From Actinoallomurus spadix (GTDB lineage Bacteria > Actinomycetota > Actinomycetes > Streptosporangiales > Streptosporangiaceae), in contig NZ_JAMXMX010000034.1 of NCBI RefSeq assembly GCF_024055725.1, forward strand, positions 1 through 64,000: a stretch of DNA of 64,000 nucleotides, written 5' to 3'. Position 1 is the first letter of the stretch. Every line of letters starts with the position of its first letter. The notes under the pieces were generated by a model. That model searched no databases, was not told the origin of the DNA, and was given only the letters and a program-made list of their open reading frames with translations. This document shows, piece after piece, positions 56,265-64,000 of the stretch. Made by a program: the position numbers and the translations under genes.

Positions 56265-57785
56265 ATGAACCGGGCCGTCGCCGCCGTCGCCGTCCTCCTC
56301 CTGCTCCTCACCGGATGCGGCGGCGGGCATCACGAGGCCGCGAGCCCGTCCAGGACCCCTCATTCCGTCCCGTCGCCCGCGGTGGCCGAGAACAGCCGGC
56401 CGGGAACCTCGGCCTGGAAGGTCCGCAAGGTCGGCGCCGAGCACGCCATCGAGGGCTTCGCGGACCACGTGAGCGTGCTGCCCGGCGAGTCGTTCCGGCT
56501 GTTCGTCTCCACCACAGCCAAGGGCTACACCGTCACCGCCTTCCGGATGGGCTGGTACGCCGGGGCCCAGGCGCGGAAGGTCTGGGCCGCACCGCACCAG
56601 GCCGGGCGGCGGCAGGCGCCCGCGAAGACGGCCGGTAGGACGCACACGGTCACCGCGCCGTGGCAGCCCTCGCTCACGGTCTCCACTCGCGGCTGGCCGG
56701 AAGGCGCGTACCTGCTGCGCCTCGACGCCGACTCGGGGTCCCAGCGGTTCGTGCCGATCACCGTCCGGTCGGCGAGCACGGCGGGCAGGGTCGTCATCCT
56801 GGGCGGGACGACGACCTGGCAGGCGTACAACATGTGGGGCGGCCGGGACCTGTACCAGGGGCCGGGCGGCTTCGACGGCCGGTCCCGCGCGGTCAGCTTC
56901 GACCGCCCGTACGACGGGAACGGCGCGGTGAAGTTCCTGGCCTTCGAACAGCCCGCCATCGCCCTGGCCGAGAGGACCGGGCTGCCCCTCGCGTACGAGA
57001 CCGACAACGATCTCCACCACGACCCGCGGCTGCTCGACGGCGCCCGGGCGCTGGTCAGTCTCGGCCACGACGAGTACTGGTCGACCGCCATGCGCGACGA
57101 GGTGACGAAGGCCCGCGACGCCGGGATGAACATCGCGTTCCTGGGCGCCAACGCGGTCAACCGGCACATCCGGTACGAGCCGACGTCCCTCGGCCCCGAC
57201 CGCCTCGTCGTCTGCTACAAGAGCGCCGACGAGGACCCGGTCAAGGACCCGGCCGAGAAGACCCAGGACTGGCGCCTGTCGCCCAGACCGCGCCCGGAGA
57301 GCGCCCTGATCGGAATCATGTACACCTGCTTCCCCGCCGACGGCGCCTGGAAGGTGTACCGACCGGACAACTGGGTCTTCGCCGGCACCGGCGCGCACAA
57401 GGGGGATGAGTTCCCCGGCGTGATCGGACCGGAGTCCGACGCGGTGACCGCGGGCGGCCCGACCCCACGGCCCATCGAGGTGCTGGCCCACTCGACGATC
57501 CAGTGCGGCACGTACACCACGACGAGCGACGCGACGTACTACACGACCAAGAGCGGGGCCGGGGTGTTCGCCACCGGGACCATGCGCTGGGTCTGCTCGA
57601 TGCGCGGCCGGGCCTGCGGCCACGGGGTGACCGGCAAGGCCGCGTCCTTCGTGTCCAAGGTCACCGAGAACGTCCTGCGCGCCTTCGCGGCCGGCCCGGC
57701 CGGCCAGGCCCACCCCGTACGGGACAACCTCGCGAAGATCCGGCCGGCCAGGGCCGGCATGGCGCAGGGCGCCGACCTGGACTGA
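56265..57785 (+). CDS. N,N-dimethylformamidase beta-like lipoprotein
   Basis: A 506-residue exported lipoprotein (MNRAVAAVAVLLLLLTGCGG). The mature part resembles the large-subunit family of N,N-dimethylformamidase, with GTSAWKVRKVGAEHAIEGFA, FRMGWYAGAQARKVW, GGRDLYQGPGGFDGRSRAVS, SLGHDEYWSTAMRDEVTKAR and GAGVFATGTMRWVCSM. Similar proteins with this start are common as surface proteins in actinomycetes; real DMF hydrolysis is not shown. It follows glnE on the same strand after 115 bases, but the subject change suggests a separate unit. A hairpin follows. Confidence 0.83.
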   Translation: MNRAVAAVAVLLLLLTGCGGGHHEAASPSRTPHSVPSPAVAENSRPGTSAWKVRKVGAEHAIEGFADHVSVLPGESFRLFVSTTAKGYTVTAFRMGWYAGAQARKVWAAPHQAGRRQAPAKTAGRTHTVTAPWQPSLTVSTRGWPEGAYLLRLDADSGSQRFVPITVRSASTAGRVVILGGTTTWQAYNMWGGRDLYQGPGGFDGRSRAVSFDRPYDGNGAVKFLAFEQPAIALAERTGLPLAYETDNDLHHDPRLLDGARALVSLGHDEYWSTAMRDEVTKARDAGMNIAFLGANAVNRHIRYEPTSLGPDRLVVCYKSADEDPVKDPAEKTQDWRLSPRPRPESALIGIMYTCFPADGAWKVYRPDNWVFAGTGAHKGDEFPGVIGPESDAVTAGGPTPRPIEVLAHSTIQCGTYTTTSDATYYTTKSGAGVFATGTMRWVCSMRGRACGHGVTGKAASFVSKVTENVLRAFAAGPAGQAHPVRDNLAKIRPARAGMAQGADLD

Positions 57786-57808
57786 GGCCCGCGACCCGGA
57801 ACCGGACG

Positions 57809-57837
57809 GCGGCCGGCCCGCGGAACGGGCCGGCCGC
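57809..57837. terminator. Hairpin between convergent lipoprotein and propeller genes
   Basis: GCGGCCGGCCCG and its exact complement enclose a five-base loop CGGAA in the 67-base convergent space. Confidence 0.75.
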
Positions 57838-57852
57838 TCGCCGTATCGTGCA

Positions 57853-58971
57853 TCACACGGCGGCGGTGGCGATCTTGTCGACGTAGTCTTCGGTCACCCA
57901 GATCCTGTTGTCCTGGGCGACGGTGAGGTCCATCGGCCCGGCCACGCTGGTCGGCAGGGCGTATTCGCTGATGGTGCCGCCCGTGGTGATGCTCGCGAGG
58001 TTGTTCGCGACCTGCTCGGTGAACCACAGGTTGTCGTCCGGGCCGGTCGTGATGGCCCAGGGGAAGCTGTTGGGGTCCGACAGCGCGTACTCGGTGACCG
58101 TTCCACCGGTGGTCACGGAGCCGACCTTGCCGTTGCCGTCGGTGTACCAGAGCTTGCCGTCGGGGCCGTTCGTGATACCGATGGGCATGGCGCCGCTGCT
58201 CGGCAGGGTGTACTCGGTGATGGACCCGGACGTCGTGATCTTCCCGATGCCGCCCGCGAGCGCCTCGGTGAACCACAGGTTGCCGTCCGGGCCGTTGGTG
58301 ATGCGCATGGGATACGCGACCGAGGTCGGCACGGTGTACTCGGTGATCGTCCCGGAGGTGGTGATCGTGCCGACGTGGTTGCCGACGAGGTCTGTGAACC
58401 ACAGGTTGTCGTCCGGGCCGGCGACGATGTCCCAGGGGTAGGCGTCGTTGTTCGGGAGAGTGTACTCGGTGATGGCGCCGGTGCCGGTGATCCGGCCGAT
58501 CTTGCCGGTGTTGGGCTCGGTGAACCACACGTTGCCGTCGGGACCGGTGGTCAGGTGGGAGGGCTGGGAGTTGGCGGTGGGTATCGCGTACTCGGCGAAC
58601 GCTCCGGCCAGGGTGACGCGCCCGATCTTGTTGGCGTAGTTCTCGGCGAACCATAGGTCGCCCTCGGGACCGAGGGTGATGCCGACGGGCGCGGCCGGGC
58701 TGGTGGGGATGGACAGCTCGCTGAACGTCGGTGCCCGCCGCATCCGCGCCGCGGCCGGAGCACCGGTCGGCCTCGAGGGCGGGAAGTGGCAGCGGATGGC
58801 GCGGTGACGCGGCATCCGTTTGAGGGTGAGGCACAGTTTCACCCACGGGCGGATCCGGTCGAGCCGGGGCACGGCGTGTGCGTTGCCGGCCGCGTACACG
58901 GGTGTGTTCACCGCCAGGACCAGCGATACGGCCGCGCACAGCTGTCTGAACGGCGGAAATCTGTGACGCAT
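57853..58971 (-). CDS. Secreted seven-bladed beta-propeller (Vgb-like)
   Basis: A 372-residue exported protein. A Sec signal (FRQLCAAVSLVLAVNTPVYA) leads into seven repeats of about 42 residues, each with GPDGNLWFTE, a GKIGRI-like strand and ITEYTLP, the pattern of virginiamycin B lyase and related propellers. Vgb uses histidines and glutamates in its late blades; here blades 5-7 hold no histidine, so lyase activity is unlikely and a binding role is more plausible. ATG 58971 follows GGAAGG at good spacing. It is encoded beside the WxL-like genes and runs in the same direction as the first. Confidence 0.85.
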   Translation of the reverse strand: MRHRFPPFRQLCAAVSLVLAVNTPVYAAGNAHAVPRLDRIRPWVKLCLTLKRMPRHRAIRCHFPPSRPTGAPAAARMRRAPTFSELSIPTSPAAPVGITLGPEGDLWFAENYANKIGRVTLAGAFAEYAIPTANSQPSHLTTGPDGNVWFTEPNTGKIGRITGTGAITEYTLPNNDAYPWDIVAGPDDNLWFTDLVGNHVGTITTSGTITEYTVPTSVAYPMRITNGPDGNLWFTEALAGGIGKITTSGSITEYTLPSSGAMPIGITNGPDGKLWYTDGNGKVGSVTTGGTVTEYALSDPNSFPWAITTGPDDNLWFTEQVANNLASITTGGTISEYALPTSVAGPMDLTVAQDNRIWVTEDYVDKIATAAV

Positions 58972-59309
58972 GAGATGCCTTCCATTGAAGGATGAAATGA
59001 GCAGGCGGGCGGCCAGGCGATATCTCGGGACTTGAGATGGCGAATCTTCCGGATTCGTCGTGTCTCGGCGGGCGCTTGGCGGCCTGTTCCGGGTGCCATT
59101 GCGGATACGCATCAGGTCCGGCGGTCCGAATATCTCCCGCGGCGCGGACGGATATGCTTCCGTCCGGTCATGAGTCCGTCAATTAATCGGGCCCGTCGGC
59201 CTTGCGGCGGTCACCGGGCTCCGGCGATGGGAAACGGGTTCGGGGGCGCGGGGAGTGTCCGCGGCCCCGATGGCCGCGCGTCCGGGCCGCGGCGGAGATC
59301 GGCGCGGGC
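58972..59309. other. 338-bp intergenic region, propeller leader
   Basis: No coding frame is convincing. On the minus strand a TTGACG (about 59168) is followed 20 bases later by CATATC, a poorly spaced promoter candidate for the propeller gene. The stretch 58980-59170 is somewhat richer in A/T than the surroundings. Confidence 0.4.
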
Positions 59310-60278
59310 TCAGGCGACGGCGTGGGTGACGGTGCCCGTGTAGGTGCCGGCGACGGCCGAGGCCGGGATGGTGACGACCAGCGTCGGGGCCCAACTGGTG
59401 CTGGTGAGCCCCGTCGTCTTGCCTCCGGTGAAGGCGGTCACCGTCCCCGACAAGGGGACGCGCTGCGCCGCGGTCGTCTGCCCGGCGACACGGGTGCCGC
59501 CACCGGAGGAGGCGGTGACCGGGCCGGACCAGTAGGCCACGGCGCTGTTGGGGATGGTCTCGGCGCTCGTTCCGCCGCCGGTGGTGAACTTGGTGGCCGT
59601 GACCGTCGCGGTCCAGCCCGCGACCCCTGGCCGGTTGTCGGTTACGGTCACCGTGCCCATCGACGCGCTGAGCGTGCTGCCGCGAGCGGCGCTGCCCAGG
59701 TTCGCCGAGTCGAGCACGGTGATCGTCAGTGTGTTCGCCAGCGCGGCGGCGACCGGCCGGCGTGCCGGCCGGGCATGCCCGGCCGCACACGGCGCACCGG
59801 CCGCCTCGGGAACGCCTCGACGCCCCGGCGTCCGGTGTTCCCGTCTTTTCACGGTGGTGAGGAACGCGGCGAGCCGGGGCACCTCGTCGGGGAGAGCGGC
59901 CTCCGGCCCCTCGCGTCCGGTCGGCTCGGCCGAGGGATCGGGGGAGTCCGAGAGCGGGGGATCGGGGGAGTCCGAGGACGGGGGGATCGACCGGGAGGGC
60001 CTTTCGGCGTCGGTCGTCCGCGGGCCGGAGGCCGGGAGGCGTCTCACGGGTCTGGGCAGCGCCGCCCCCCTGGGCGCCGGGGACGACCACGCCGGGCCCA
60101 CGCGCGCGGCGCGCTCGGCCGACCCCGGTGGGCAGGAGGCGGGCGACGGCGATGGGTGAGGCGCTCCCCCGCCCCGCGGGGTGTGGCCGCCGGGCGCGGC
60201 CGAGGCCGGATGAGCGCCTGCGGTGATGGCGAGCGCGACCGCAGCCGCGAGGAGTCCGGCTGGGTGGCAGTGGCTCAT
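59310..60278 (-). CDS. Secreted protein with C-terminal WxL-like domain (long form)
   Basis: A 322-residue exported protein. After a signal (AGLLAAAVALAITAGAHPAS) comes 130 residues rich in Pro, Ser and Arg, including the repeat SDSPDPPLSDSPDPS. The last 135 residues form a beta-rich domain: NTLTITVLDSANLGSAARGS, WTATVTATKFTTGGGTSAET, AVAYWSGPVTASSGGGTRVA and TLVVTIPASAVAGTYTGTVT, ending HAVA. This domain recurs in the gene at 60744. Layout and final YTGT-x-x-H-x-V resemble the WxL surface domain of Firmicutes without its final Trp-x-Leu. Start ATG 60278 has GGTGA upstream; GTG 60287 is possible. Function is likely cell-wall attachment, by inference. Confidence 0.75.
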   Translation of the reverse strand: MSHCHPAGLLAAAVALAITAGAHPASAAPGGHTPRGGGAPHPSPSPASCPPGSAERAARVGPAWSSPAPRGAALPRPVRRLPASGPRTTDAERPSRSIPPSSDSPDPPLSDSPDPSAEPTGREGPEAALPDEVPRLAAFLTTVKRREHRTPGRRGVPEAAGAPCAAGHARPARRPVAAALANTLTITVLDSANLGSAARGSTLSASMGTVTVTDNRPGVAGWTATVTATKFTTGGGTSAETIPNSAVAYWSGPVTASSGGGTRVAGQTTAAQRVPLSGTVTAFTGGKTTGLTSTSWAPTLVVTIPASAVAGTYTGTVTHAVA

Positions 60279-60743
60279 CAGATTCACCGATCCGTCTCAT
60301 GACCATCGCGCCGGGGGCCGTCTCCGCTTCCAACGAGGCTGCTGGCAGCCTAGATCGCGGAATCGGGACGGTGTCGTCCGGCAGGACCCTCCGGCGGCAA
60401 ATGACGCACAAAGACCTCACCCCGCGCACGTTCCGCGCCTGGGCCCGGATTCTCCGCGTTGGACCGGTGGCGTTCATGCTCGATTCCGGCGCAATGCCCC
60501 AGAAGGCGGTCGGTCGCAACGGACGGATAAAGCATCTATTCCGGCAGGAGGTGCATGGGTCTCATCCATCGCCTATCGGATCGGTCCGTCTCTCTTTGCC
60601 GGCGAGCCGGTCATCAAGCGCCGGCCAAGATTCACCGGCCGTGCGCGTGGACAGTTTCACCGGCCTGATCGGGTGGCACAATCCGATCGCCTGCATCAGC
60701 CCGGCGGACCACAGCAGGGCGTGATTCGAAAGGAATCGGGACG
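60279..60743. other. 465-bp divergent intergenic region of the WxL-like genes
   Basis: This separates the two divergent WxL-like genes and must carry promoters for both. No reading frame has actinomycete codon usage. AAAGGAA (about 60729-60735) is the ribosome site of the right-hand gene. No clear operator repeat was found. Confidence 0.4.
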
Positions 60744-61331
60744 TTGTCTGGAATACGCCGTCTCAGTATCGCCCTGGCCGGCGGGGCCGCCCTTACCGCG
60801 GCCCTGCTCATCGCCCCTCCCGCTCCGCGGGGCTGGGCCGGTACCTGTCCGGCCTCGACCACCTGTCCCACCACGGTGACGTTCTCGGTGACCGCGCCGG
60901 GCACGCTGACGATCAACGTGCCCGGCGGGCCGGTCAATCTCGGCGGCAACGCGCCCGGCAACCAGGTCACCGGGCAACTCGGCGCCGTCACCGTCGCCGA
61001 CCAGCGCGCCGCGCTGGCGGCGACCTGGACCGCCACGGTGTCGGCGACCAATTTCACCACCGGAGGCAACGACCCGGCCGAGATCGTTCCGGCCTCCGAC
61101 GTGGCGTACTGGTCCGGCCCGGCCACCGCCACCACCGGCACGGGCACTTTCGTCCCTGGCCAGGCTGACGCCGCGGCCGCCGTCACGCTGGACCAGTCCC
61201 GGACTGCCTTCAGCAAGACCACCGGGTCCGGCGACAACTCCGCCACCTGGAACCCCACGCTGGTCATCACCATCCCCGCCCAGGCCGTCGCCGGCACCTA
61301 CACCGGCACGGTCAACCACCAAGTTGCCTGA
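60744..61331 (+). CDS. Secreted WxL-like domain protein (short form)
   Basis: A 195-residue exported protein made almost only of signal peptide (RRLSIALAGGAALTAALLIA) and one WxL-like domain: FSVTAPGTLTINVPGGPVNL, GQLGAVTVADQRAALAATWT, NFTTGGNDPAEIVPASDVAY, TFVPGQADAAAAV and TWNPTLVITIPAQAVAGTYT, ending VNHQVA. It is clearly homologous to the end of the 59310 gene. The start is TTG with AAAGGAA eight bases upstream. It overlaps the next gene by eight bases, so the two are co-translated. Confidence 0.8.
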   Translation: MSGIRRLSIALAGGAALTAALLIAPPAPRGWAGTCPASTTCPTTVTFSVTAPGTLTINVPGGPVNLGGNAPGNQVTGQLGAVTVADQRAALAATWTATVSATNFTTGGNDPAEIVPASDVAYWSGPATATTGTGTFVPGQADAAAAVTLDQSRTAFSKTTGSGDNSATWNPTLVITIPAQAVAGTYTGTVNHQVA

Positions 61332-62364
61332 CACGCCTGCGCTGTGGCGAGCCCGCGCGGCCGCCCTGCTGACGGCGTACGCCTGGACCGGGCCCGCCCC
61401 GGCCCAGGTGCACGCCACCGCCGTGCCGGAGCCCGACGTCCCGAACTCCATCGCGATCGGGGTCGCCGACGTTCCGGCCAGCAGACTGGACGATCCGCGC
61501 GCGCGCCTGTACGTCGACGACCACGTGAACCCTGGTACGACCTTCACCCGGCACCTGCACCTCTACAACACGTCCGATCGGCCCCAGCACCTGCGGCTCT
61601 ACGCCGGGGCCGCCAGGATCACCCGGCACCGTTTCACCTTCCCCCCGCCGGACGCCCCGGGCAACGAGCTGAGCTCCTGGATCCACCTCGACCACACCAC
61701 GCGCACCATCCCCGCACACGCCGACGCCCTAGTGACCGCCAGGTTCGCGGTGCCGGACTGGGCTCAGCCGGGGGAGCGCTACGCCGTGATCTGGGCTCAG
61801 GTGTCCTCCGCGGAGGCCGGGCCCCACGGGAACGTCACCTTGGTGAACCAGGTCGGGACCCGCGTGTACCTTCACGTGGGTCCCGGCGCCGAACCGCCCT
61901 CGGACTTCCGCATCGGCCCCTTGCGGGCACAGCCCACCCCCGACGGGCGCCACCTCCTGACCGCCACCGTCACCAACACCGGCCAGCGCGCCATCGACCC
62001 CGAGGGGCGACTGTGGCTGACCGGCGGTCCCAGCCGCCTGGCCGCCGGTCCCTTCACCATCCCGCGCGGAACCACCATCGCCCCCGGCGAGCAGGCGCCG
62101 GTCACCGTCCCGATCGGGCCCGACGTGCCGCAGGGCGCCTGGAACTACCGGCTCACCCTTCACAGCGGCCGCGTCGCTAGAACCGCCACCGGCACGCTCA
62201 CCCTCGCCGCGAAGCCCACGGTCGCCGGCGGGCTGGCCGCCTTCACGCGGCCGTCCACGATGACCCTCACCCTCACCCTGGCCGGTTTCCTGTCGGCCGT
62301 GCTGGGCGGGATCGTCCTCATCGTCCGCCGGCTTAGTATCCGTCGCAGGCCCGGCGCCACCTGA
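61324..62364 (+). CDS. Membrane-anchored protein resembling WxL-interacting (DUF916) family
   Basis: A 346-residue exported protein. A signal (RARAAALLTAYAWTGPAPAQ) is followed by PNSIAIGVADVPASRLDDPR, then YVDDHVNPGTTFTRHLHLYN and TARFAVPDWAQPGERYAVIW, matching the WxL-interacting peptidoglycan-binding domain (DUF916), and a second immunoglobulin-like domain (LLTATVTNTGQRAIDPEGRL). A single C-terminal helix (LTLTLAGFLSAVLGGIVLIV) with the RRLSIRRR cytoplasmic tail anchors it. Starts at TTG overlapping the WxL-like gene by eight bases, as WxL and WxIP genes are linked in Firmicutes csc clusters. Likely holds the WxL-like proteins at the wall (inference). Confidence 0.8.
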   Translation: MPDTPALWRARAAALLTAYAWTGPAPAQVHATAVPEPDVPNSIAIGVADVPASRLDDPRARLYVDDHVNPGTTFTRHLHLYNTSDRPQHLRLYAGAARITRHRFTFPPPDAPGNELSSWIHLDHTTRTIPAHADALVTARFAVPDWAQPGERYAVIWAQVSSAEAGPHGNVTLVNQVGTRVYLHVGPGAEPPSDFRIGPLRAQPTPDGRHLLTATVTNTGQRAIDPEGRLWLTGGPSRLAAGPFTIPRGTTIAPGEQAPVTVPIGPDVPQGAWNYRLTLHSGRVARTATGTLTLAAKPTVAGGLAAFTRPSTMTLTLTLAGFLSAVLGGIVLIVRRLSIRRRPGAT

Positions 62365-62438
62365 GCCTCGGGTGCCACCCGCGCTCCGCCGGGGACGGAG
62401 GCGACGCGAGGCAGACGCGCGGCGTGACGGCGGCGAGG

Positions 62439-63266
62439 TCAGGGCGCGGCCGACCCGCCCGTGTCGGTGGAGAAGACGCGGGCTACCGGGCCGAGACGCG
62501 GCACCACGACCCGTACCGTCCGGGTCGCGGCGTATCCGGCGGTCAGGGTGACCACCCCGCCGACGGCGTCGAGCAGGTAGTGGTTGGCCGTGCCGAGGAT
62601 CACGAAGACGGTCGCGGCGGGGTAGCAGTACGCCAGCCACCGGACCCGGCTGGGTCGCGTGACATCGGCGATGGCGATCGCGCACCACAGCGACCATCCC
62701 GTGTGCAGCGACGGCATGGCGGCGTACTGGTTGGACACCGAGGCGACCGGCGAGGCGCTGGACTCGTACAGGCCGCCGCCGACGTTGAGCGCCGTGTCGA
62801 CGAACCCGGGGATCATGCGCGGCGGCGCGAGCGGGTACAGCCAGAACCCGATGAGGGCGAGCACCGTGGTCGCGAAGATCAGCCGCCGGTAGAACACATA
62901 GCGTTCGGGATGGCGCGTATACAGCCAGACCAGCACGCCGATCGTGAGGATGAAGTGGAGACTCGCGTAGTAGTAGTTCGCGCTCATCCCGAGCCAGCGC
63001 TCGTCCGTGAACAGCCGGTTGATCGACGACTCGATGTTCAGGTGCAGCAGGCGCTCGAGGTGGAGGATGTCATGCCCGCGGTTCAGTGCCGCCGTGTGGT
63101 TGCGCGGCACGAGGTCGCGTACCAGTGAGTAGGCGCCGTAGCAGAGAAGGATGAGCAGGATCTCGCGATAGAAGCGGGGGCGCCCGGCGGCTCTGCCGCC
63201 TGCCTGCGCCCCCGTCAGGTCGCCCGTGGCGACCGGCGCCACGGCCGACCTTGACATGATCCCCAT
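62439..63266 (-). CDS. PAP2-family phosphatase, membrane protein (first of two)
   Basis: A 275-residue protein with about six helices. The PAP2/Aur1-type active-site blocks are AMPSLHTGWSLWCAIA and ILGTANHYLLDAVGGVV, holding the catalytic histidines; the first block (Lys-x6-Arg-Pro) is degenerate as in inositol phosphotransferase-like members. It could dephosphorylate or transfer phosphate on a lipid in the membrane. It begins four bases after the stop of a paralogue and converges on the WxIP-like gene. Confidence 0.88.
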   Translation of the reverse strand: MGIMSRSAVAPVATGDLTGAQAGGRAAGRPRFYREILLILLCYGAYSLVRDLVPRNHTAALNRGHDILHLERLLHLNIESSINRLFTDERWLGMSANYYYASLHFILTIGVLVWLYTRHPERYVFYRRLIFATTVLALIGFWLYPLAPPRMIPGFVDTALNVGGGLYESSASPVASVSNQYAAMPSLHTGWSLWCAIAIADVTRPSRVRWLAYCYPAATVFVILGTANHYLLDAVGGVVTLTAGYAATRTVRVVVPRLGPVARVFSTDTGGSAAP

Positions 63267-63270
63267 GGTC

Positions 63271-64000
63271 TCAGATCGAATCGGGTGACCCGTCGGTAAT
63301 CCTTGTCTTGTTTGTCACTTTGTGATCTTTCGCCGGTCCGGTCCTCGTCGCCTTCGGCCGGGGAAGCCCGCAGATGAGCAGCGCGGACGCGGTGATCAGA
63401 ACACCTGCCGCCGCGTCCAGCACGTAATGATTGGCGGTCGAGAAGATCACCAGAATTGTCACGACGGGGTAAAGGGCGGCGAGCGCCCGTACCCAGGGAC
63501 GCCTCGAAAGTGTGACGACCGCGACCGCGCACCACAAAGCCCACCCCGCGTGCATTGACGGCATTGCCGCGAACTGATTGGTCAGCGAACCGGCCTCCGG
63601 TGACGAATAGAGGCCGAAGCTGTGCAGCGCCACCACCGGGTCGACGAACCCGCGGCCGCCGAGGAAGCGCGGCGGTGCCAGGGGGTACAGCCAGAAGCCG
63701 AGCAGTGCGATGCCGGTGGCGGCCATCAGGGCCCTGCGCAGCCGGCGGAAGTGCTGGGGCCGCCGGCGGTAGAGCCAGACGAGCACGGTCAGGGTGACCG
63801 CGAAGTGGGCGGTGGCGTAGAACCAGTTCGCCGGCCTGGCCAGTGACGGCGCCCGCAGCAGCGCGTGGTTGAGGTCCAGCTCGACGTCGATGCCCAGCGC
63901 GTGCTCCAACCGCAGGATCTGCGACGCGTGCGCGTACGCCATCGGCTCGTCGTGCGGAATCAGCACCCGGACGAGCGTGTACGCGCAGTAGAAGGCGGCG
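63271..64000 (-). CDS. PAP2-family phosphatase, membrane protein (second, cut by window edge)
   Basis: At least 243 residues are inside the window; the N-terminus lies beyond 64000 (edge reads AAFYCAYTLVRVLIPHDEP). Blocks AMPSMHAGWALWCAVA and IFSTANHYVLDAAAGVLI align with the neighbouring copy, and LGFWLYPLAPPRFLG is shared with it (IGFWLYPLAPPRMIP). The two tandem genes are therefore an operon of paralogues from a local duplication. A Lys/Arg-rich tail ends the protein. Confidence 0.88.
   Translation of the reverse strand, partial: AAFYCAYTLVRVLIPHDEPMAYAHASQILRLEHALGIDVELDLNHALLRAPSLARPANWFYATAHFAVTLTVLVWLYRRRPQHFRRLRRALMAATGIALLGFWLYPLAPPRFLGGRGFVDPVVALHSFGLYSSPEAGSLTNQFAAMPSMHAGWALWCAVAVVTLSRRPWVRALAALYPVVTILVIFSTANHYVLDAAAGVLITASALLICGLPRPKATRTGPAKDHKVTNKTRITDGSPDSI

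Follow-up and report, generated by a model that had tools for sequence, protein, structure and literature searches.

WxL surface proteins and the WxL-interacting protein (WxLIP; DUF916-DUF3324) are encoded together in csc clusters, which passages of PMC9772566 and PMC10599100 place in Lactobacillales and Bacillales; the former assigns more than 91% of WxL sequences to Firmicutes and describes motif 1 of WxL as preceded by D at W-8 and R at W-6. In a portion of the latter, a hairpin of the Enterococcus faecium WxLIP is predicted to complete the WxL sandwich. A four-gene locus at positions 57853-62364 of a 64,000-nucleotide stretch of the Actinoallomurus spadix genome (contig NZ_JAMXMX010000034.1, positions 1 to 64,000; hereafter the window) was compared with these systems. 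This locus is likely to represent a sister system, in Actinobacteria, of the WxL (csc) surface clusters of Firmicutes, with the mechanism proposed below as one reading of how it works.

The sequence-only reading had placed four open reading frames (ORFs) here, and their coordinates and strands were all correct. On the minus strand, 59310 (WxL-like) is followed by 57853 (propeller); divergent from this pair, 60744 (WxL-like) and 61324 (WxLIP-like) stand on the plus strand. The features of the locus are as follows.

57853..59112, minus strand: secreted propeller of the Vgb (virginiamycin B lyase) family (PF24684, PDB 2z2n match); aligned active-site residues not kept
59310..60287, minus strand: secreted protein with a signal peptide, a low-complexity spacer of about 150 residues and a C-terminal WxL-like domain (translation, PF13731, relatives)
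59313..59774, minus strand: WxL-like domain of the 59310 gene, with a D-x-R...W-T-A motif and a Y-T-G-T-V-T-H-A-V-A end (profile search, alignment A2)
60288..60743, no strand: divergent intergenic region between two putative operons (gene coordinates), a presumed promoter region
60744..61331, plus strand: small secreted WxL-like protein, signal peptide plus domain (translation, family alignments, AlphaFold model)
60876..60890, plus strand: N-terminal V-T-F-S-V segment of alternating hydrophobicity, a candidate donor strand (AlphaFold model, column statistics)
61299..61328, plus strand: C-terminal strand Y-T-G-T-V-N-H-Q-V-A replacing the second WxL motif (column counts, tail lengths; last model strand 158-162 of 163)
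61324..62364, plus strand: WxLIP-like membrane-anchored protein with a signal peptide, two beta domains and a C-terminal helix (AlphaFold model, Foldseek match to 9i25_C)
61843..61878, plus strand: long alternating-hydrophobic strand following the flexible hairpin in domain 1 (model strand 145-156), a candidate for the strand given to the WxL-like domain
62257..62340, plus strand: C-terminal helix of the WxLIP-like protein (model helix 283-310, hydrophobic sequence), taken as its membrane anchor

Like the csc clusters, the window carries one WxLIP-type and two WxL-type genes side by side, with the WxL-type domain in C-terminal position. Unlike them, it has the motifs W-x-A and H-x-V instead of two W-x-L motifs, no DUF3324 recognisable by sequence, a propeller partner and an actinobacterial host, and an LPxTG signal ends none of the four products. 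The proposed 8-base overlap of 60744 and 61324 was found, and an identical overlap is present in two loci of the same genus (L032 and L033). No σ70-like promoter was found in 57700-62500, where the promoter and terminator scan did no better than on shuffled sequence.

Kinship of the two partner proteins

The AlphaFold model of the 61324 product (P0004), made with a 67-row alignment (A4), had a predicted local distance difference test score (pLDDT) of 90.3 and comprised two beta domains and a C-terminal helix. The pLDDT was lower (73) at residues 131-140, ahead of the strand at 145-156, and the hydrophobicity of the columns alternates in the alignment. When the model was compared with the PDB by Foldseek, ranks 1 to 3 were occupied by E. 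faecium WxLIP, namely 9i25_C (expect value (E) 9.1e-12), 9i1y_A and 9i1y_B (to 1.3e-10), followed by the biofilm protein RbmA, CEP192 and many pilus chaperones. This match of a predicted fold is the decisive structural evidence for the WxLIP kinship of P0004, which resembles the csc WxLIP in its two beta domains, its C-terminal helix and its best PDB match. PF06030 was the commonest Pfam match of the WxLIP-like family (36 of 67 members at E ≤ 0.1, best 1.3e-5). Among four plasmid relatives the best score was 26.4 bits against a cut-off of 27.3; two from Arthrobacter gave 25.3 and 26.4, and a third relative had no such match. A single-sequence search matched P0004 to L056 (E 3.6e-11), which itself reaches the PF06030 cut-off. 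At the place equivalent to the published WxLIP segment NQIDKxxxYFDLK, the family reads DPRAxxYIVDHLxPG, similar in pattern but different in letters. By its predicted fold the partner is WxLIP-like, under the sequence cut-offs.

The two WxL-like domains of the window are 52% identical (A2). Among the WxL-like domains in the 98 rows of alignment A3, PF13731 was the commonest Pfam match (18 rows at E ≤ 0.1, best 1.4e-6), and a relative on a Curtobacterium plasmid passed its cut-off (27.3 against 25 bits, profile positions 89-207 of 214). Judged by these profile matches, the C-terminal domain common to both secreted partners is a remote homologue of WxL. Motifs were counted in 146 distinct WxL-like domains, 142 to 146 of which were scored in each column quoted. 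Motif 1 had D in 139 of 145, R in 138 of 142 and W in 140 of 146, and its third residue was A in 117, V in 16 and L in none of 146. The consensus of motif 2 was Y-T-G-T-V-T-H-S-V, with H in 125, Q in 16 and W in none of 145; the last residue was V in 138 and L in 2 of 145. The D and R at about W-8 and W-6 before motif 1 are kept, with exact spacing in the 59310 product and a spacing one residue longer in the 60744 product. Both window domains were said to end in YTGT-x-x-H-x-V, and both do end in Y-T-G-T-V-x-H-x-V-A; the altered motif had been described correctly and extends to the whole sampled branch.

The 59310 product was also considered as a 'large WxL' protein with an adhesin domain. This candidate was rejected: the middle of the protein is of low complexity without a Pfam match at E ≤ 1, and the length of its spacer is rare, recurring (by eye) in only 3 of 19 minus-strand copies, two from Actinoallomurus and one from Sphaerisporangium.

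Several results weigh against the kinship with WxL and WxLIP. The 59310 product stayed below the PF13731 cut-off (E 0.0026, 18.2 bits, cut-off 25), the 60744 product had no PF13731 match in the Pfam search, and neither protein matched NCBIfam. The defining double Trp-x-Leu is replaced by W-x-A and H-x-V throughout the sampled branch. In the Foldseek search of the PDB with the WxL-like model, nothing was found at E ≤ 0.001 (best E 2e-3), no WxL-titled chain stood among the best 50 of 765 matches, and beta-N-acetylgalactosaminidases (NgaCa, GH123) came first among the same 50. The GH123 N-terminal domain was the second commonest Pfam match (11 of 98, best E 0.0018), and the best PDB sequence match of the WxL-like domains was a GH123-type enzyme (E 0.033). 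PDB sequence searches with P0003, P0004, family profiles and two relatives reached neither WxL nor WxLIP. The whole-chain template modelling (TM) score of P0004 against 9i25_C was only 0.40/0.49, which is probably due to the angle between the domains. P0004 had no PF06030 match, no Pfam match above cut-off and no NCBIfam match, and DUF3324 (PF11797) was matched by none of the 67 family members at E ≤ 0.1. The WxL kinship claimed for the C-terminal domains is thus upheld by the family, which matches PF13731 and has one relative above the cut-off, but not by the scores of the window proteins themselves. Likewise, the claimed DUF916 resemblance of the 61324 product is upheld by its predicted fold and by the PF06030 matches of its relatives, but not by a match of its own.

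Such results would be expected if the products were immunoglobulin (Ig)-fold surface proteins without specific WxL or WxLIP ancestry, the C-terminal domain being perhaps closer to the GH123 N-terminal beta sandwich. The low sequence scores of the window proteins, the matches of generic Ig-type Pfam families to the WxLIP-like set (e.g. NPCBM_assoc in 35 of 67) and the prominence of GH123-type domains, which take second place in Pfam and lead the fold search, agree with this explanation. However, both partners independently indicate two halves of one known system, and one relative passes the WxL cut-off; moreover, GH123 domains are not known to have the WxLIP fold as a partner. An origin outside the WxL system is therefore considered improbable. 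The WxL and GH123 signals may both derive from one old beta-sandwich ancestry. The lack of the double W-x-L motif keeps the actinobacterial domain out of WxL proper; as far as profiles and motifs indicate, the actinobacterial domains are a WxL-like sister branch and not members of WxL. This sister branch probably works like WxL.

A second class of actinobacterial DUF916 proteins (L052-L056) was also observed, five of them reaching or exceeding the PF06030 cut-off. At G081, G276:C5, G298:C1:1527376, G318 and G367:C44, genes of this class have a weak WxL-like match nearby, and the class is possibly another branch of the WxL-like system. DUF916 genes are mentioned in a portion of PMC12537917 as neighbours of Ang-2 metalloproteins.

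Fixed C-termini and a possible strand exchange

The WxL-like domain lies within 10 residues of the stop in 129 of 130 cases, and 128 of 130 tails have 0 residues past the profile end. Of 128 distinct C-termini, 124 were scored; the other four are two that likewise end in HSVA, one spurious match and one truncated at the edge of its locus. A single residue follows the motif V in 123 of the 124 scored, and three residues follow it in the remaining one. Past the profile end, 79 of 81 WxLIP-like proteins have tails of 8 to 30 residues; those of the other two exceed 200. In the AlphaFold model of the 60744 product (pLDDT 92), the V-T-F-S-V segment belongs to no strand (pLDDT blocks 67 and 70); its alternating columns in A3 hold hydrophobic residues in 55, 82 and 77% of rows, and the two positions between them in 8-9%.

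A tentative alternative is that the locus encodes an usher-less donor-strand system. The WxLIP-like protein would be a membrane-tethered chaperone of the pilus type and the WxL-like proteins incomplete Ig-like subunits, whose C-terminal carboxylate docks in the chaperone and whose N-terminal V-T-F-T-V strand passes to a neighbour to build a surface fibre. Both partners show a likeness to chaperone-usher pili and TapA/TasA at the level of the fold. Donor-strand fibre subunits were found near the WxL-like model among the best 50 of 765 matches, with the Csu pilus chain 7zl4_A at TM 0.51/0.58 (E 0.02) and further neighbours from CsuA/B, CFA/I, CS17, type 1, TasA and cannulae. P0004 matches entries titled CfaA, CsuC, CupB2, FimC and Caf1M (E 6e-8 to 2e-6), and two arginines of the WxLIP-like family are conserved (mature numbering), Arg30 in all 67 rows and Arg151 in 66. 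The fixed carboxy terminus and the alternating N-terminal segment left outside the strands of the monomer model are shared with the same pili, and strand complementation in a Gram-positive is described for TapA/TasA in passages of PMC10151520.

On the other hand, the WxL-like fold matches are weak and are led by glycoside hydrolases, and because P0004 also matches RbmA and CEP192, its likeness to chaperones may not go beyond the fold. Nor is a fixed end peculiar to these proteins, since 19 of 19 propellers end within one residue of the profile end, and strand alternation is common in beta proteins. Unlike chaperone-usher pili, the partner is membrane-anchored, and the A. spadix genome gave no match to the usher family (PF00577, E ≤ 1) or PapD_N (PF00345, E ≤ 10), for both of which the Escherichia coli controls were positive. 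A word search of the available portions of PMC9772566 and PMC10599100 did not find the word 'chaperone'. In a broader form, a donor-strand machine without an usher would operate on the outside of the cytoplasmic membrane in Actinobacteria and, by extension, in Firmicutes. A PapD-shaped WxLIP chaperone would catch incomplete WxL subunits by their fixed C-termini, and N-terminal V-T-F-T-V strands would join the subunits to one another, or to the propeller, in a fibre or layer associated with the wall. This broader form is doubtful, still more so than the local one, because the fold matches are weak or generic.

Linkage in actinomycetes and the Vgb-type propeller

A scan of a genome collection with one WxLIP-like family pattern gave 203 stretches, of which the best 80, representing 79 distinct named loci, were kept. 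A WxL-like gene lies directly upstream of the WxLIP-like gene, on the same strand, in all 79 loci, its match being partial in five (L079, L080, L107, L114 and L136). The same pairing was present in all six plasmid loci opened, from 18 matched records. Two or more WxL-like genes occur in 46 of the 79 loci (45 when a spurious 21-bit match in L085 is left out), and the whole four-gene order of the window is kept in 17. In a phylum sample of 296 genomes including that of A. spadix, in which E ≤ 1e-40 defined a strong WxLIP-like match, a WxL-like match (E ≤ 1e-6) adjoined it in 13 of the 16 strong genomes; in G251 the match that it adjoins is split. The occurrence is patchy within the genus of the window: seven congeners gave four strong matches, one weak match and two without a match. 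It is apparent that the recurrence of the WxL-like/WxLIP-like pair is far beyond chance. A survey of other actinomycetes had been named beforehand as a test of the proposed linkage, which is supported by these counts; the WxLIP fold was matched and the linkage recurs across the phylum, where the joint lack of both would have spoken against the proposal.

To the points already weighed, the survey adds that three strong WxLIP-like genomes (G340, G234 and G319) have no WxL-like match at E ≤ 1e-6 and that 4 of the 21 WxL-like genomes in the draw have no WxLIP-like match at E ≤ 1e-10. Furthermore, a distance correlation over 44 loci gave r 0.743 for the adjacent WxL-like gene and 0.795 for the other one, which does not single out the adjacent gene as the partner. 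The propeller loci are also narrowly distributed, 18 of 19 falling in five related genera and the 19th in Kitasatospora, and the linkage of the propeller may reflect one event or few independent events.

The same gene pair includes actinobacterial plasmid proteins already annotated as 'DUF916 domain-containing' and 'WxL domain-containing', for example in Arthrobacter and Curtobacterium. The annotation of the six plasmid loci is automatic and partial; the WxL-like gene is named in one (Curtobacterium, 'WxL domain-containing protein') and the DUF916 partner in three. No Firmicutes record was among the 23, 18 and 12 records matched by tblastn on plasmids, and the Firmicutes WxLIP motif was not found in the viral contigs scanned for it.

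In 5 of the 10 large relatives scanned, the WxL-like domain is fused behind cargo modules, and the other five entries gave no match; L109 and L143 are the same gene, so these are 4 of 9 different proteins. The modules ahead of the domain are laminin-G with DUF2341, Ig with fn3, or ice-binding. These fusions suggest that the WxL-like domain acts as a C-terminal holder for surface cargo.

Several single loci deserve mention. Ice-binding-like domains (PF11999) precede a C-terminal WxL-like domain at L122:2377-4887 (Cryobacterium suzukii) and L106:6543-7772 (Micromonospora matsumotoense). In Lentzea sp. NBRC 105346 (L143), five WxL-like genes surround one WxLIP-like gene within 10.8 kilobases (kb), and one of the WxL-like proteins exceeds 1,200 residues and carries laminin-G and DUF2341 modules. 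The Curtobacterium plasmid pTCL encodes a SipW-dependent-type signal peptide protein (L065 9737-10360) a few kb from its WxL/WxLIP-like pair. In the window itself, a secreted-looking DMFA2_C family protein (56265-57785, plus strand; PF20254, E 9.7e-110) is encoded directly beside the locus, and two tandem PAP2_3 superfamily genes, apparently duplicated, lie on the other side (62439-63266 and 63271-63966, both minus strand).

The propeller matched PF24684 with E 7.8e-101 (337 bits, cut-off 50), and its closest solved relatives by sequence are Vgb structures (PDB 2z2n, E 3.4e-69). Its start is probably Met48 (58971), where the signal peptide and the conservation among relatives begin. W352, G392 and M394 align with H228, E268 and H270 of Vgb, which we take to be catalytic residues together with E284; the first three were compared. 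Over 20 copies the aligned positions held W in 20, G in 19 and N in 1, and F, L, M or I in 20; all three Vgb residues were kept in none. PDB 2z2n and 2z2p carry different residues at H270. According to passages of PMC8916777, Vgb binds substrate analog and metal through polar side chains of its blades 6 and 7. The propeller thus resembles Vgb propellers in family and fold and differs from them in the lost active-site residues and in an added N-terminal extension. The latter, at residues 89-108 (58789-58848, minus strand), reads P-W-V-x2-C-x2-L-K-x2-P-x-H-R-x2-R-C, each letter being present in at least 90% of the 20 copies, and possibly forms a disulfide and docking segment.

A propeller is encoded in 19 of the 79 loci. 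In 17 of them, which belong to Actinoallomurus, Sphaerisporangium, Nonomuraea, Microbispora and Streptosporangium, it follows directly on a divergent WxL-like gene, the order seen in the window; the other two loci, from a Nonomuraea and a Kitasatospora, are arranged differently. The role of a partner proposed for the propeller is supported by this synteny. A functional streptogramin lyase that stands beside a surface locus by chance would account for the strong PF24684 score and for the Vgb structures as closest solved relatives. This explanation is nevertheless highly improbable in view of the residues at the aligned positions, the score of 254 bits against an NCBIfam lyase cut-off of 600 and the recurring position beside a WxL-like gene. 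The loss of the active-site residues suggests that the propeller is probably non-enzymatic. The A. spadix genome contains one other Vgb region, formed by two neighbouring ORFs on contig C5.

Proposed mechanism and significance

In the favoured reading, a sister of the csc system, the 61324 product would be of the WxLIP type, with its C-terminal helix as anchor in the cytoplasmic membrane. A portion of PMC10599100 puts the WxLIP helix in the host membrane; the helix was assigned here to the bacterium's own membrane, because a host membrane makes little sense for soil actinomycetes. On emerging from the secretion machinery, the two WxL-like proteins would be taken over by the 61324 product, which would grip each of them by its C-terminal domain. 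By analogy with the published E. faecium prediction, the hairpin strand of the WxLIP-like protein probably completes the WxL-like beta sandwich. The WxL-like domains would then be shown in the wall, carrying whatever lies N-terminal to them. In this locus the cargo would be the separately encoded propeller, not a fused module; synteny and the loss of the active site point to a binding module and not a lyase. The contact of the partners, the binding to the wall and the display of the propeller are all inferred.

Among the matches listed in a literature search on actinobacterial WxL, WxLIP, donor strand and propeller, judged by title and the start of the abstract, there was no paper on the actinobacterial branch. 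The locus would represent a second branch, found across the actinobacterial phylum, in which the two partners are the same and the motifs rewritten. This branch keeps the D-x-R turn, the first Trp and the C-terminal position, and has lost the second Trp and both Leu. The propeller is a likely case of mis-annotation, a surface protein that library names would label a streptogramin lyase. The solved E. faecium entries and the 79 paired loci make the interface between the two partners testable by comparison.

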